DNA of 22,221 nt from a virus: IMG/VR virus record IMGVR_UViG_3300037070_008347, positions 1-22,221 of that record, one strand, 5' to 3'. The position numbers and the translations under genes were made by a program. Positions 6,792-18,401 of the stretch are shown here, in pieces (positions within the stretch are counted from its first letter, which is position 1; the number at the start of each line of letters is the position of its first letter). The notes below the pieces were generated by a model. It did not search any database and was not told the origin of the DNA. It was given only the letters and a program-made list of their open reading frames with translations.

Positions 6792-8747
6792 TTAAGTTGC
6801 GCTCGCATCGCCCGTTGCGACCCAGACATCTGTCGCCGTCTTGATGATCGTCATCACCGAGTACTGGGTGCGGGACTTGGCTGTCGCCATCGCCTTGCTG
6901 ATCGTCGGCGGGCCGGCCCCGGTCACGGTGAACTGTCCGGCGGCCAACTGGATCAGGTCGATGCTGGTGCCGATCGGGAAGGCGACGGATGCGTTGGTCG
7001 GCACGGTGAGCGTGATCGCTGCGGCGTTGGACAGGGTGACGATCTTGCCGGCATCGGTCAACACCAACGTGTACGACGTGCCGGTTTGGGCGTTGATCGC
7101 CTGCGACAACGGCTGATATGCCCCGGCGACACCGGCGGCGGTGACGGCTCGTGTCGTGTCGGTGCCGGTGAGCACCTCGGCGGCGGTGGCCAGCTCGACG
7201 ACACCGGTCGCCGTATCGGAGGCTGCGCCGACGGCGATCGTCCTGTTCGCCGACAGGTCCGCCGACGTCGTGCCTGCGATCGTCAACGGTGTCGTCGCCG
7301 TGATCGTGTACCCCGTCTTGACCCTGTCGGCGAGACCGGCGGGGGTGACGGCGCGCACCGTGTCGGTCTGTGCCGTCGCCTCGGCGGTTGTCGCCAACTC
7401 GACGAGACCGGAGACGGTCGCCGACGCCGTCGGCAACGTCGTCCAGTTGACGGCGTAGTCGGTCGACGTGACCTTCGACAACACTTGGTCGGTGGTGCCG
7501 CCGCGGGGGATGCCGACCTGCGCCGGTGGGATCGACTGCAACTCGACACGGCCGGCGCCGATCGTCCCGGCACCCGCGGCGTAGGCGACGGTCATCGTGT
7601 GATAGGTGCCCGAGTCGACGGTCGAGGCGGTGACGTTGTACAGCACCCACTTCGACGAGTCGTCATAGTCCTGGACGTAAACCTGGTAGCCGGCTTTCAT
7701 CCGCTCGAGGCCGGTCGTGACGTCCAATCCGTCGAGGTCGGTGTCGAACACCCATATCGTCGTCGCTGACGCCCAGGCGGCGTTGTTGATGCGCAGCTGG
7801 TTGGCGACGGGTGGCGCCGTCGTCGTCGTGTTGTAGGTGAAGCTGGCGTGACCGGCGAGGTTGCCGCCCGCAGGCCCTTGCGGACCCGTCGCCCCGGTGA
7901 CCCCTTGGATGCCTTGGATGCCTTGGTCGCCCTGCACGCCTTGGATGCCTTGCGGACCCGGGACAGTCGAGTCGGCACCGTCGACACCGTCTGCGCCGTC
8001 GGCCCCGGTCGCCCCGGTGACCCCTTGGATCCCCTGCACGCCTTGGATGCCTTGCACCCCTTGGGGGCCTTCGACGCCTTCGGGGCCTTGGATCGAGCCG
8101 ACGTTGATCCACGCCGCACCGGTCCACACGATGCCGTCACCGGCCTGAGCGTCGGCGCCGCCGTCACGGTCAGGGGCCGCGGTCGGCACCGGCGTGCCCA
8201 ACACCCACAGGTCGTTCACGGCTGGCGACGCAGGCAACGCCGTCGCCGCCCCCGACAACACACCCTTCACTGTGACGCTCGTCCCCGCCGCACCGTCCGC
8301 GCCGTCCGCACCAGGTGCCCCGTCGGCGCCGGCTGGACCATCCGCGCCCGGTTCGCCCTGCGGGCCGGCAGGGCCGGCGAGGTACGGCACACCGGTCGTC
8401 GCCGTCACCGGCGTCACCTCGGCAAGATCGATCGTCTCACCGGCGGGAGCGGACATGTCGAAGCTGTAAGCCGAGATGCCGCCGAGACGGACCCGGACAA
8501 GATACGTCCAATCCTGCGGGTTCAGGTCGGCGTCGTCTGTGGCCATCAACGCCACGCTGAACGCTCCGGCAGCGTCCAAGGGGACGACTTGGGGGACGGC
8601 GGGGATCGTCACCGGCGTTGTGGCGGTGGCGTCGAGCATCCGTGGAGGTTGGGGGACGAACTCCACGGTGCCCGACGGCACCGACCCGTCAGAGTTGACG
8701 AACGCGCCGACGACGGTGCACGTCGCGACGTTGGCCGGCAGCGACAT
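6792..8747 (-). CDS. Large collagen-like tail fibre
   Basis: A 651-residue fibre. ATG 8747 shares its A with the endolysin's TGA; a start at 8777 is possible but would overlap that gene by 31 bases. Residues 1-120 are a beta-rich anchor domain similar to that of the 220-residue fibre. There are two Gly-X-Y stalks: residues 125-155 (GPAGPQGEPGADGPAGADG...) and 221-295 (GPQGVQGIQGVQGIQGVTG...), the second broken by DSTVP at about 259-263. A small globular insert lies between them. Residues 300-435 are a beta-rich domain. Residues 446-545 carry two tail-fibre repeats, SGLVELATTAEATAQTDT and TGVVELATAAEVLTGTDT, each ending in RAVTPAGLA or RAVTAAGVA. The C-terminus forms a beta knob. A trimeric receptor-binding fibre is the likely role. 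Confidence 0.85.
   Translation of the reverse strand: MSLPANVATCTVVGAFVNSDGSVPSGTVEFVPQPPRMLDATATTPVTIPAVPQVVPLDAAGAFSVALMATDDADLNPQDWTYLVRVRLGGISAYSFDMSAPAGETIDLAEVTPVTATTGVPYLAGPAGPQGEPGADGPAGADGAPGADGADGAAGTSVTVKGVLSGAATALPASPAVNDLWVLGTPVPTAAPDRDGGADAQAGDGIVWTGAAWINVGSIQGPEGVEGPQGVQGIQGVQGIQGVTGATGADGADGVDGADSTVPGPQGIQGVQGDQGIQGIQGVTGATGPQGPAGGNLAGHASFTYNTTTTAPPVANQLRINNAAWASATTIWVFDTDLDGLDVTTGLERMKAGYQVYVQDYDDSSKWVLYNVTASTVDSGTYHTMTVAYAAGAGTIGAGRVELQSIPPAQVGIPRGGTTDQVLSKVTSTDYAVNWTTLPTASATVSGLVELATTAEATAQTDTVRAVTPAGLADRVKTGYTITATTPLTIAGTTSADLSANRTIAVGAASDTATGVVELATAAEVLTGTDTTRAVTAAGVAGAYQPLSQAINAQTGTSYTLVLTDAGKIVTLSNAAAITLTVPTNASVAFPIGTSIDLIQLAAGQFTVTGAGPPTISKAMATAKSRTQYSVMTIIKTATDVWVATGDASAT
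7863..8087 (-). repeat. Second collagen-like Gly-X-Y repeat tract
   Basis: This is the DNA encoding residues 221-295 of the large fibre. It is built of 9-base Gly-X-Y units, many alternating GIQGVQ, so on the plus strand short words such as CCTTGGATG recur. One break (DSTVP) divides it. It predicts a collagen triple helix roughly 20 nm long, given about 0.29 nm per residue for such helices. Confidence 0.85.
8283..8375 (-). repeat. First collagen-like Gly-X-Y repeat tract
   Basis: This encodes residues 125-155 of the large fibre, ten Gly-X-Y triplets dominated by GAD and GPA/GPQ units. It is separated from the longer second tract by about 65 non-collagen residues. Confidence 0.8.
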
Positions 8748-9625
8748 CAGGTCAACGTCCTCGAGGCGTAGCCCCACACCTCTTCGGCAACCGAGTTCTT
8801 GGCGTCACCCGCCCTCGTCTGGCGGTCGGCGTTCGCCGCCGCACCACGAATGTAACCCATCAAAGTCTCAGCCGGCACCGGCTTGTTCACAGTCGGATCG
8901 GTGATCATCCGACGCCACACCGCTTCAGCGGTGCGGTTGACCAGTTCGGTCATCTGTTCCTCGGTCAAGTCGTCCTCCTCAGGTTCGGCCGGCTTGGGTG
9001 GGATCGTCACGTTGATCCATCGGCGCACCGCCTCGGCACGGACGTCGTCACAGTTCCACGTCCCCGAGTTGGTCGACGGCCGTGGCTGCCACGGACCGAA
9101 CACCTCGGACGCTTTGGCCGGGTCGATCTTGCGGCTAGGGGCGTACAGGGCGTGGGTGAACAGGTCGGACGGGATGTTTCCAAATTTGAAATTGAGTTCG
9201 TTCGACGCTTTGAAGTAGGCGTCGACCTGTACCCGCGGCCACGGCTGCCCGGTGCCGTTGTTCGCCGCTTCGATCGCCCACGTCGTCGTATTCCCCTTGT
9301 CGACCGGCACCGTCCCCCGATGCAGAGTGACAGGGCCACCCTTGCCGGCCGTGTTCGCCGCACCCGCAGCGATCATGTAGACGACGCCGTCCGGCCAGAG
9401 AAGCATGTTGCCGATCGGTGCGGCGTCGGACCCTTCAGTCATCCAATTCAGGTTCGCTTCCAAGTTCATGTTGCCGGCGGTGTGATGCCACTGGATGCCG
9501 ATCGGGCGTGCAGCGAACCCTCCGGACGACCGGGCACGGGTCTGCCAGCCGTCGACCTCGACGACCGTCAACCCGGCTTCTCGCAGCCACTGGGCGGCCT
9601 GCGTGTAGTAGATGCCTTCGGTCAT
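8747..9625 (-). CDS. Endolysin: N-acetylmuramoyl-L-alanine amidase (amidase_2/PGRP type)
   Basis: A 292-residue zinc amidase that would cut the MurNAc-L-Ala bond of peptidoglycan at lysis. The catalytic domain is about residues 38-180. The first zinc histidine is in IQWHHTAGN (His47/48), Glu119 lies in WAIEAANNGTG, and the second motif HALYAPSRKIDP supplies His158 and Asp168, the usual H...apgrKtDP pattern. Asn191-Cys192-Asp193 follow at the domain end. Residues 212-225 are an acidic linker and 226-292 are helical (LTEEQMTELVNRTAEAVWRR), with no recognised cell-wall-binding repeat. It has no signal peptide, so a holin is needed. The gene lies among tail genes, coupled by ATGA to the 94-residue gene and by TGATG to the fibre. 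Confidence 0.92.
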   Translation of the reverse strand: MTEGIYYTQAAQWLREAGLTVVEVDGWQTRARSSGGFAARPIGIQWHHTAGNMNLEANLNWMTEGSDAAPIGNMLLWPDGVVYMIAAGAANTAGKGGPVTLHRGTVPVDKGNTTTWAIEAANNGTGQPWPRVQVDAYFKASNELNFKFGNIPSDLFTHALYAPSRKIDPAKASEVFGPWQPRPSTNSGTWNCDDVRAEAVRRWINVTIPPKPAEPEEDDLTEEQMTELVNRTAEAVWRRMITDPTVNKPVPAETLMGYIRGAAANADRQTRAGDAKNSVAEEVWGYASRTLT

Positions 9626-9906: not shown

Positions 9907-9968
9907 GCTGATGGTTCTCCGTCCGGGTCTGGTTCGTCGGGATCTGGGTCCTCGGGTGTGAAGTTCAT
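9903..9968 (-). CDS. 21-residue acidic Asp-Pro peptide gene
   Basis: A tiny frame, MNFTPEDPDPDEPDPDGEPS plus A, starting at ATG 9968. Its start overlaps the S74 fibre stop (ATGA) and its stop overlaps the next start (ATGA), exactly the coupling used elsewhere in this train. A GGGGGTGG purine run lies about 5-12 bases upstream of the ATG. The product is very acidic, with repeated Asp-Pro/Glu-Pro units, and is predicted to be disordered. It may simply be a translational relay that carries ribosomes to the next gene, or a small functional peptide. The arrangement is unlikely to be accidental, but coding is unproven. Confidence 0.5.
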   Translation of the reverse strand: MNFTPEDPDPDEPDPDGEPSA

Positions 9969-10816
9969 GCGCCACCCCCTTCCAAAACGTCGATGCGGGC
10001 TGACAATGTTTGAACGGCGCCGACCAACAAGGCGATCAGCTTGCCGGTGTCGAGCTGCTGCGGGTCGATGTCGCCGTCGGCCCGGACGGCGTCCTTGGCG
10101 CCGGTCACGGCGTAAGGGACGACGGCTTGTACTTCGTGGGCGATGAACCCGTCGAACTCGGTTTGATCCGCTTTCCACCGCAGATGTTTCGGTTGCAGCT
10201 CGAGGATCCGGTCCAATGGGGCGTCGATCGGACCCAACTCGTCCTTGAGCCGGTAGTCGGATGTTTCGTTGTAGGCGACACCCGGCCCTGCGGTGATCGT
10301 GATCGAACCGACCTGGTCGGCTGTGCCGGCACGGTCGAACCGGACATACAGGCCGCCGGCGGCGGCGGCCTGGGTGCCGGTGCGCTGCAACACCAAGTTG
10401 GGTAGGGCGGTCGGGGTGGCACCGGTGGTGACGGTCGAGATGATCGCCCCGTCGGGACGCATCCGGGAACCGTCGGTCGACGGGCCCGGTGTCGCCCCGA
10501 CAGACAGGCCGCCGGTCATCGTGTCGCCGGCGATCGCGACACAGTCGTCACGGACGTCGTCGACATAATCCTTGCGGGTCGCATGGTTCGCCGCGGTCGG
10601 CAACGTGTCGGTGATGGCGACCTGGCCGTTGGCGGTGACGAGTCCGGCGACCGTCAACGTCGACGCCGACGGCGTGCCCGAGGTGATCGTCACCGGGCCG
10701 GCCAACGTCTGCGCCGCCGTCTTCTTGACGACGTTGCCGTTCAGTTCGGTGGCGACGGCGTTACCCCACGTCGTACGAACCAGTTCGTTGTTGGAGACGC
10801 CGGGAATCGTGGCCAT
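9965..10816 (-). CDS. Tail fibre with C-terminal S74 intramolecular chaperone
   Basis: A 283-residue fibre starting MATIPGVSNNELVRTTWGNA, with AGGAG eight bases before ATG 10816. Residues 30-180 are beta-rich fibre repeats (VTITSGTPSASTLTVAG, GQVAITDTLPTAANHATRKD). Residues about 183-283 match the peptidase S74/chaperone-of-endosialidase domain: SDYRLKDELGPID, LQPKHLRWKAD, FDGFIAHEVQAVVPYAVTG, and a C-terminal coiled coil LIALLVGAVQTLSARIDVLE. Ser186 and Lys191 are spaced five apart, like the Ser-Lys dyad of endosialidase NF (Ser911/Lys916), so autoproteolytic release after trimer folding is expected. It lies after the baseplate gene. Confidence 0.9.
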   Translation of the reverse strand: MATIPGVSNNELVRTTWGNAVATELNGNVVKKTAAQTLAGPVTITSGTPSASTLTVAGLVTANGQVAITDTLPTAANHATRKDYVDDVRDDCVAIAGDTMTGGLSVGATPGPSTDGSRMRPDGAIISTVTTGATPTALPNLVLQRTGTQAAAAGGLYVRFDRAGTADQVGSITITAGPGVAYNETSDYRLKDELGPIDAPLDRILELQPKHLRWKADQTEFDGFIAHEVQAVVPYAVTGAKDAVRADGDIDPQQLDTGKLIALLVGAVQTLSARIDVLEGGGA

Positions 10817-16198: not shown

Positions 16199-16651
16199 TT
16201 AGACGGTTATCGGGACGGGTTCGGGTGGTACGGCGACCACGGTGGGTGTAGGGATGCAGAACGTGCGGGCGGTGATCGTCGCCGCGACATCGACGACGGC
16301 GCCCCGCAGTACTTGGGCGGTGTCGACGAACACGTCGCCCGGTTCGACGTGACGGGCGTTCATCGACGGGGTTGCTTCGATGATGTCGACGACCTGGGCG
16401 ACGAGATCATCCAACAGGGCGCATTGGGAGTGGGTGGCGCCGTCGACAACCAAGTGCAACGGGAACACCGCCACCCACACATTGGTTGACGTGCCGACCG
16501 TCTCCGGGTCCAACGCCGGTGTGTCGATCCACGCCAACGGGGCGAGACCCCGTTGTACTTTCGTCGGCGGAAACGCGTTGACCCGTCCCGGCAACACGGT
16601 GGCGACCGCATCAGCGATCGACTGACGGGCCAACGCGAGACGATTCGTCAT
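16199..16651 (-). CDS. Tail terminator / tail-completion-like neck protein
   Basis: A 150-residue protein starting MTNRLALARQSIADAVATVL at ATG 16651, overlapping the connector stop by ATGA. It has an N-terminal helix, then an alpha/beta fold: VWVAVFPLHLVVDGATHSQC, a helix CALLDDLVAQVVDIIEATPS, then strands VLRGAVVDVAATITARTFCI. Helix, sheet, long helix and sheet match the gpU/tail terminator fold that caps the tail tube and joins it to the connector. The gene lies between the head-tail connector and the major tail protein, the usual place. No sequence motif is diagnostic, so a general neck-protein assignment is safest. Confidence 0.65.
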   Translation of the reverse strand: MTNRLALARQSIADAVATVLPGRVNAFPPTKVQRGLAPLAWIDTPALDPETVGTSTNVWVAVFPLHLVVDGATHSQCALLDDLVAQVVDIIEATPSMNARHVEPGDVFVDTAQVLRGAVVDVAATITARTFCIPTPTVVAVPPEPVPITV

Positions 16652-16998
16652 CCGACGCCCCAGCGTTGTTTGAACGGCAACAGCTGCGGACGGATCTCAG
16701 CCAACGGATCGGCGAACCCGGACAGGATCGTCGTGCCCTCCAACTGGGATGTCGGCGTGTCCAAGTACAGCCGGATCGTCACATGCTCGAGCGACCATTG
16801 GATCAGCGGATGCGGCGGCGGCCCCGTCAACATGTCGCAGCGGTCGAGCTCGACGTCGATGAGATGTGCCGCCGCCGGAATCAACGCACCTAAACGGTCC
16901 TCGTCGACGTCGCCGATCTGCAGGCGCAACTTGCCGCGGACACCCTCGAGAGTGTCGGCGACGTCGTACCACGGCGACAACGACAAAGGCGTAACCAT
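16648..16998 (-). CDS. Head-tail connector (HK97 gp6-like adaptor)
   Basis: A 116-residue, mostly helical protein. Its ATG at 16998 directly follows the TAG ending the small Lys/Pro-rich frame (TAGATG). The pattern VDEDRLGALIPAAAHLIDVE, then LIQWSLEHVTIRLYLDTPTS, then a Gly-rich turn and EIRPQLLPFKQRWGVG, matches the gp6-like connector family, whose members form a 12-fold ring under the portal. The closing LLPFKQRWGVG is a common ending in actinophage versions. It couples by ATGA to the tail terminator gene. Confidence 0.85.
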   Translation of the reverse strand: MVTPLSLSPWYDVADTLEGVRGKLRLQIGDVDEDRLGALIPAAAHLIDVELDRCDMLTGPPPHPLIQWSLEHVTIRLYLDTPTSQLEGTTILSGFADPLAEIRPQLLPFKQRWGVG

Positions 16999-17127
16999 CT
17001 ACGCCTTGCCCTTCGGCTTCGACGTCGAACGTCGTGCCGGTTTCGATTTGTCCTCGGGTGGGGTCTCGGACATCTTCTTCTCTGCGCTTGGGGTGGTAGG
17101 CGCCTGAGTGGCCCGCGCTGCGGCCAT
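16999..17127 (-). CDS. Lys/Pro-rich 42-codon frame, probably a frameshift extension of the capsid protein
   Basis: An open frame from ATG 17127 to TAG 17001-16999, reading MAAARATQAPTTPSAEKKMS then a Pro/Lys/Arg/Ser-rich tail ending SKPKGKA. It is predicted to be disordered and strongly basic. ATG 17127 has no Shine-Dalgarno and lies inside the stem at 17103-17131. An internal ATG at 17073 (MSETPPEDK...) has AGAGAAGAAG next to it and could start a 24-residue peptide. The frame is also open upstream into the capsid gene in the -1 register, so ribosomes slipping at 17145-17139 would add Ser-Val-Ser-Leu plus these 42 residues to the capsid protein. Either a separate small gene or an extension is possible; I favour the extension. 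Confidence 0.6.
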   Translation of the reverse strand: MAAARATQAPTTPSAEKKMSETPPEDKSKPARRSTSKPKGKA

Positions 17128-17131
17128 CAGG
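17103..17131 (-). promoter_or_regulatory. Stem-loop downstream of the capsid slippery site
   Basis: On the minus strand CCTGATGGCC (17131-17122) pairs with GGCCACTCAGG (17113-17103): 10 base pairs with one bulged C at 17108 and an 8-base loop GCAGCGCG. It begins 7 bases after the slippery heptamer, the spacing usual for stimulators of -1 frameshifting. It also buries the ATG at 17127. Confidence 0.65.
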
Positions 17132-17132
17132 C

Positions 17133-18401
17133 TTACGCTGGGGGGGTTAACGGCGCGAGACCGACAGCCTCCACTGCGTTGTAAGCGATGTATCCGCCGT
17201 AGGCGACCTGCACACCGAGCAGCGACGGCTCAACCGCGGACAGGACACCGATCACCTCTTCGTACACTTCGTACGCTTCGGCGACACCGACGATGCAGGT
17301 GCCGGCGGTGAACGACGGCACGACGACACGGGGAACGGCGAACATGTTGCCGCCGAATCCGGCAGCCCCCTGGGACGAGACGAGTTCGGCGATCATCGAC
17401 CCGGCCGTCACCAGCGCCGAGTCGACCAGCGGACCGACCTTGACCCAGACGTCCGGCGCCATCCAGATGCGGTTCGGCATCCGTGCCGGCGTCGTCGCCG
17501 CATACACCTGCGCAGCCGCCGTGTAGATCGCCGTCGCCCAGTTGGCCAACGTGTTCGTCCCGACGGCGATCGGGGTCGCCGTTGCTTTGGCGACGAAGTC
17601 ATCGGCGACAGTGTTCTCGACGTCCTCGGCGTAGACGGCGGCGAGATCGGAGAGCAGGATGTCCCACGCCGACGGCACCGTCCAGTCGATGTCCTGACGC
17701 GAAATATCTATCGTGCCGCCCCTCGTCTTCTTGGTGAAGGTGACCGACGAGATCGTCATTTTCTGACTGGTCAGCTCAGTTTTTTCGGTCGCCTGAGTGC
17801 CCGACGTGGCGTGCTGGGTGATCTTCGGACGGGTGAACGTCGCCCCGGGGATGCCACCCATCGGCTTGGCGCCGCCGATCGACGAGATGAACGGCTGCAC
17901 CGCCATCTTCGCCTGCAGGACGTCGCCGACGATCGGGGTCGGCAGGATCCCCGCCGTGTCCGACGAAATCTGGTTGGCGACCGTACGGGACAGCATCTGC
18001 ATCCGTTCGATCGCGTTGGCGTCGGGGGCGAGCACCGAGTTCGAGTAGTCACGCATCCCGCCACGGGCCCGCAAGTGGTCGACGATGAACTCGCCGGCCG
18101 ACCGGTACACCGTCTCGGACTGCGGCGGCGGCGGTGCGGCGCTGTCACCGTTGTCACGTGCCGGTGTCGCCCGGTGCAGCACGCTGTGCGCGTCGGTCGA
18201 CTCGAGACGCATCTTCTCCAGGTCGACCTGCGCCCGGATCAACTGTTCGAGTTCGCCGAAGCGATCTTTCATCCGTGACAGCGAGCCGTTCTCGAGGTCG
18301 GACGGATCACGGCCGTCGGCCTCGATGTTGGCAAGCGTGCGGTCGATGTCGTCGTTGACCTGTTCGCGTTCTGCGGCCAGCCGCTCGAGCACCTTGTTCA
18401 T
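17133..18401 (-). CDS. Major capsid protein, HK97 fold
   Basis: A 422-residue shell protein. The strong GGAGG in GGAGGGTGTATG fixes ATG 18401. Residues 1-75 are a charged coiled-coil delta (scaffolding) domain (MNKVLERLAAEREQVNDDID), followed by a Pro-rich linker at about 80-95 that the prohead protease would cut. Residues about 100-420 are the HK97-type shell: DTAGILPTPIVGDVLQAKMA (N-arm/E-loop entry), TSQKMTISSVTFTKKTRGGT, SRQDIDWTVPSAWDILLSDL (spine helix), NRIWMAPDVWVKVGP and a C-terminal A-domain ending AVEAVGLAPLTPPA. The zero-frame product ends at TAA 17135-17133, but the codons ACC CCC CCA just before it form a slippery site that may yield a longer product. Confidence 0.95.
   Translation of the reverse strand: MNKVLERLAAEREQVNDDIDRTLANIEADGRDPSDLENGSLSRMKDRFGELEQLIRAQVDLEKMRLESTDAHSVLHRATPARDNGDSAAPPPPQSETVYRSAGEFIVDHLRARGGMRDYSNSVLAPDANAIERMQMLSRTVANQISSDTAGILPTPIVGDVLQAKMAVQPFISSIGGAKPMGGIPGATFTRPKITQHATSGTQATEKTELTSQKMTISSVTFTKKTRGGTIDISRQDIDWTVPSAWDILLSDLAAVYAEDVENTVADDFVAKATATPIAVGTNTLANWATAIYTAAAQVYAATTPARMPNRIWMAPDVWVKVGPLVDSALVTAGSMIAELVSSQGAAGFGGNMFAVPRVVVPSFTAGTCIVGVAEAYEVYEEVIGVLSAVEPSLLGVQVAYGGYIAYNAVEAVGLAPLTPPA
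17139..17145 (-). other. Candidate -1 ribosomal frameshift heptamer C CCC CCA
   Basis: The zero-frame capsid codons ACC CCC CCA (17147-17139) contain C CCC CCA, which fits X XXY YYZ with X=Y=C. Two zero-frame codons remain, GCG and then TAA. After a -1 slip the frame continues AGC GTA AGC CTG ATG and stays open to 16999. A bulged 10-bp stem starts 7 bases downstream. Capsid-end frameshifting is known in phage T7 (gp10A/10B) and in Listeria phage PSA. Confidence 0.55.

Follow-up and report, generated by a model that had tools for sequence, protein, structure and literature searches.

Several phages are known to produce minor capsid proteins by frameshifting. T7 (protein 10B), the Listeria phages A118 and A500, and Privateer do so by a -1 shift, and the Listeria phage PSA by a +1 shift (PMC5009743, PMC7881722). 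In T7 10A/10B, as in T3 and Privateer (slip sequence GGGAAAG), the -1 shift takes place near the 3' end of the capsid gene and gives a minor, C-terminally extended form; the T7 gp10 shift also involves a distant 3' element. In PSA, the +1 shift occurs at a CCC proline codon and is accompanied by a pseudoknot. According to Atkins et al., it seems to make no difference to phages whether a C-terminal Ig-like extension is decoded in frame or after a +1 or -1 shift (PMC5009743).

The locus examined here lies in a 22.2-kb virus record (the window, i.e. the whole stretch of DNA analysed), the one record of this phage. The virus is actinophage-like and belongs to a high-GC family. On the minus strand of the window, Pfam and PHROGs profiles identify genes for the terminase, the portal and an S78 protease, followed by the capsid gene. 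The product of the latter matches Phage_capsid_4 (Pfam, 3.3e-9) and the major head protein family phrog_2263 (6.8e-43), and the structure predicted for it by AlphaFold (mean pLDDT 75) corresponds to the HK97 fold. The next gene has no family match among Pfam and PHROGs profiles; from its position, which is that of the adaptor gene in MooMoo and Catdawg, it is a probable head-tail adaptor. Elsewhere, the tail-fibre region (6792-8777 and 9965-10816, both minus strand) encodes a collagen-repeat protein and an S74 endosialidase-chaperone-domain protein. A gene of the phage integrase family is found at 812-1591 on the plus strand, opposite to the capsid gene, and the phage is therefore probably temperate. 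The features discussed below are collected in Table 1.

Table 1. Positions of features at the capsid gene end of the window and of C_CCU_UAR capsid ends in related loci (L numbers).
Feature	Positions	Strand	Remarks
Major capsid protein (MCP) gene	17133..18401	-	422 aa, HK97 fold
Slippery heptamer C_CCC_CCA, capsid frame	17139..17145	-	within C7 17140-17146; 3 nt before TAA
Hairpin, 11 bp with one bulge	17102..17132	-	6 nt past heptamer; contains ATG 17127
-1 frame tail	17002..17139	-	46 codons, Lys/Pro/Ser/Ala-rich, SVSLMAAAR...KPKGKA
Alternative: separate 42-codon gene	16999..17127	-	from ATG 17127, TGATG context
Next gene, probable head-tail adaptor	16648..16998	-	ATG at 16998 adjoins the TAG of the tail
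C_CCU_UAR capsid end, -1 module after	L019:3781-3787
C_CCU_UAR capsid end, -1 module after	L031:3775-3781
C_CCU_UAR capsid end, -1 module after	L265:147-153
C_CCU_UAR capsid end, -1 module after	L038:3769-3775
C_CCU_UAR capsid end, -1 module after	L004:4287-4293
C_CCU_UAR capsid end, -1 module after	L015:3808-3814

The capsid protein ends in L-T-P-P-A-stop, spelt ACC CCC CCA GCG TAA. The initial annotation recognised in this string a C CCC CCA that fits the slippery rule, and the heptamer was confirmed in frame at 17145-17139. X_XXY_YYZ heptamers are few in the window (six in all among 18 genes and 6,393 codons), and C_CCC_CCA is the sole one near a gene end; C7 runs as such are not over-represented (two observed versus 5.6 expected). 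No Shine-Dalgarno-like sequence was found 10-14 nt upstream of the heptamer. No stop interrupts the -1 frame between 17229 and 17002, and its 46 codons past the slip point are closed by a TAG (17001-16999) directly flush with the ATG of the next gene, in agreement with the earlier description. The predicted frameshift product, with the junction peptide ...LTPPSVSLMAAAR, likewise has the 467 residues first calculated (421+46). The spacer, previously given as seven bases, was re-measured as 6 nt, and the stem, reported as 10 bp with one bulge, does have the bulge but comprises 11 bp. Compared with shuffled sequences, this hairpin scores a z of about -1.2 to -3.3, varying with the window used, and ranks 10th of 142 capsid ends; some ends without frameshift carry stronger stems. 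Its strength is thus not exceptional among capsid ends and is suggestive. Hairpin strength alone was rejected as proof of a frameshift because non-frameshift capsid ends can be equally strong.

These elements suggest the following mode of action. On C_CCC_CCA, which encodes the Pro-Pro before the stop, and facing the hairpin 6 nt downstream, a fraction of the ribosomes would slip back by one base. The slipped ribosomes would bypass the TAA and produce a 467-residue minor capsid protein, and a minority of shell subunits would carry a disordered, basic C-terminal tail with a putative function in adhesion or DNA binding. The likeness to T7 10A/10B would lie in the -1 shift near the capsid 3' end; the slip sequence is a different one, and the tail of the window phage is, as predicted from its sequence, a basic disordered peptide. 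T7 gp10A/10B and PSA had been named together as precedents. Both do make capsid extensions, but PSA shifts by +1, and it is A118 and A500 that shift by -1 (PMC5009743). With PSA, the window would share a frameshift extension near the capsid gene end, which in PSA arises on a proline codon; the tail of the window lies in the -1 frame and not in the +1 frame. Slippage in the window phage, its rate and the location of the tail are what we infer. That the phage uses frameshifting to make its capsid tail is plausible, if unproven, and modestly favoured; it is the better reading of the locus, not the sole one. Of the programmed -1 frameshift originally proposed, the coding tail, the anatomy of the signal and the presence of modules at the same terminus in relatives hold, whereas use of the C7 by the window phage is not established.

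A comparison of about 140 distinct capsid ends revealed three arrangements of C-terminal modules, namely fusion in frame, a separate start/stop-coupled gene, and a -1 frame. In IMG/VR, the window has only three close relatives, L002, L003 and L004, which together with it form a four-member clade (support 100). In a large sister clade (87 rows in the tree; e.g. L020 and L059), the tails are in frame, comprise 39-83 residues counted from the VAYGGY motif, are Ala/Pro/Glu-rich and mostly end in Lys/Arg. They resemble the window tail in length and composition but are fused without a frameshift, so that every subunit carries one. Separate small genes, with a 1- or 4-nt stop/start overlap, follow the capsid gene in the Mycobacterium phages MooMoo (gp6), Catdawg (gp40), Ryadel (gp44) and prophiGD91-2 (gp88); L005-L007, L099 and L103 also have a separate small gene in the -1 frame. 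Since 1- and 4-nt overlaps both result in a -1 frame, finding a module in this frame does not by itself demonstrate frameshifting. A module named SAP-like by eye (it has no profile match) occurs both as an in-frame fusion (L025) and as a separate coupled gene (L007, L099).

It is accordingly conceivable, though rather unlikely, that the window phage has a separate small gene as well. Translation would stop at the TAA, or at the TGA of TGATG, and restart at ATG 17127 to give a free, basic 42-residue protein coupled to the capsid. The annotated outgroup relatives make the equivalent protein in just this manner, always in the -1 frame, and TGATG and ATGA junctions are frequent elsewhere in the window phage. 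MooMoo gp6 and Catdawg gp40 are similar to the window tail: they share its position, -1 frame, Lys/Pro-rich composition and lack of a clear ribosome site. On the other hand, their start codons overlap the capsid stop (TGATG/TAATG) and they have no C7 heptamer, while ATG 17127 lies 5 nt past the TAA, overlaps only the second in-frame stop, TGA, and sits inside the hairpin. No ribosome-binding site was found upstream of it. The initial annotation had dismissed this ATG on the latter two grounds; both observations are correct, but the argument from the ribosome site is weak, as MooMoo gp6 and Catdawg gp40 themselves start without a clear Shine-Dalgarno sequence. A separate gene would also make the slippery heptamer an accident, and none of the 39 homologous T-P-P motifs of relatives is spelt as the slippery ACC CCC CCA. 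Moreover, many relatives have the tail fused in frame.

These in-frame tails, present in about 97 distinct relatives, could point to an indel in the homopolymer instead. The true or ancestral gene would then have one more C and an in-frame tail, with the break being either a recent mutation or an error in sequencing. The frame break does sit exactly at the C7, and one added C joins the frames. However, the capsids of the nearest relatives, L002, L003 and L004, also terminate early, and short-read errors at a run of seven are uncommon; an indel is improbable. An alignment of relatives for C7, spacer, stem and -1 frame had been proposed as a check. Modules in the -1 frame were indeed found, but the C7 is kept in no close relative, and six relatives have C_CCU_UAR instead. 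Among GTDB genomes, none was found with the window protein alone and nine more distant relatives with a profile, and the slippery C-run at the capsid end is absent from all nine. Because no relative keeps the C7, the signal of the window cannot be judged by conservation.

The coding nature of the tail was assessed by scoring its composition; the reference sets were 97 in-frame tails from the capsids of relatives and, as decoys, 600 out-of-frame stretches free of stops. At 0.98 bits/residue, the window tail falls on the mean of the natural tails (0.975 +/- 0.37), and the decoys score at most -0.17. Counted from the VAYGGY motif on, the frameshifted capsid has 69 residues, and natural in-frame tails have 40-83 (median 54). 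The codon-usage score of the small frame is uninformative, and Rfam, Pfam and PHROGs gave no match for the tail and its surroundings. Judged by composition, the -1 frame beyond the capsid stop truly encodes a tail; composition does not settle the route to it. Relatives often have a -1 frame that stays open beyond the capsid stop, yet an untranslated frame left open merely by GC-rich DNA is most improbable, as 0 of 600 decoys reach the tail's composition and the frame ends flush with the next ATG.

A second candidate signal is found in the relatives. Where the -1 frame crosses the capsid stop, the latter reads C_CCU_UAR in L002, L004, L019, L031, L038 and L265, and thus in two of the three nearest relatives of the window, which itself has no CCCTTAR motif. 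In these six, the -1 module starts right at the capsid stop, with CCC TTA R in its own frame against C CCT TAR in that of the capsid. As a control, the ends of open frames of at least 150 codons in the same loci were examined (about 1,570 distinct ones); CCCTTAR occurs only at these capsid gene ends and in no other gene (L265, cut by the contig end, is below the 150-codon limit). Capsid genes with a Pro-stop end but without such a module use CCG, CCC or CCA. The -1 modules behind C_CCU_UAR comprise a PKD domain (L019; Pfam PKD, 2.7e-5) and/or a conserved FDPG-HT..EV domain. In L019, L031 and L265, the -1 frames agree from the first post-slip codon (PLVTVRVQVG, PLITVSAVVG and PLITARVEVG, respectively), upstream of any start codon. 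L265 and L287 (IMGVR_UViG_3300036835_000168) hold two parts of the capsid gene at two contig ends, and this contig is therefore probably circular or permuted.

The same three loci have in common a 10-bp stem just past the stop (3791-3845 in L019), in which 28 of 30 cells are paired; three of its pairs are compensatory, changed on both sides. Sliding the stem partner by 1-3 columns abolishes the covariation, and 30 of 500 shuffles match it; with three sequences only, this is good but not overwhelming support. Stems are found at the equivalent place in L038 and L004, and a weak one in L002. In L004, the region directly behind the capsid stop contains no start codon, the sole candidate being a GTG 31 nt upstream; in L002, a GTG overlaps the stop (TAGTG) and would allow translation to start without use of the CCCTTAG. 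Mechanistically, tRNA-Pro on CCU, with the stop codon in the A site, would probably slip back to CCC with better pairing. On this sequence evidence, C_CCU_UAR is a candidate stop-codon -1 frameshift signal, distinct from the +1 shift of PSA as is C_CCC_CCA in the window, and this capsid family probably includes members that extend the capsid protein by a -1 shift. No match for CCCUUAG with frameshift was found in the open-licence literature searched, and phage records gave none in a tblastn search with the PKD-type -1 product.

Tentatively, with the balance slightly against so broad a statement, the capsid C-terminus may be regarded as a slot for modules (basic tail, PKD/Ig-like, SAP-like or HTVAEV) that are joined in frame, encoded separately, or reached via two -1 slip signals, one of which, C_CCU_UAR plus hairpin, is undescribed in the literature searched. 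By analogy, the family looks like a case of the decoding indifference described by Atkins et al. If the frameshift reading is true, a high-GC, actinophage-like family would join the few phages known to control by frameshifting how much of an extended capsid protein is made, and C_CCU_UAR would be an easy motif by which annotators could spot hidden capsid extensions. The in-frame tails and separate genes within the same family provide natural controls, which allow one to ask why a tail should be placed on only some of the subunits.
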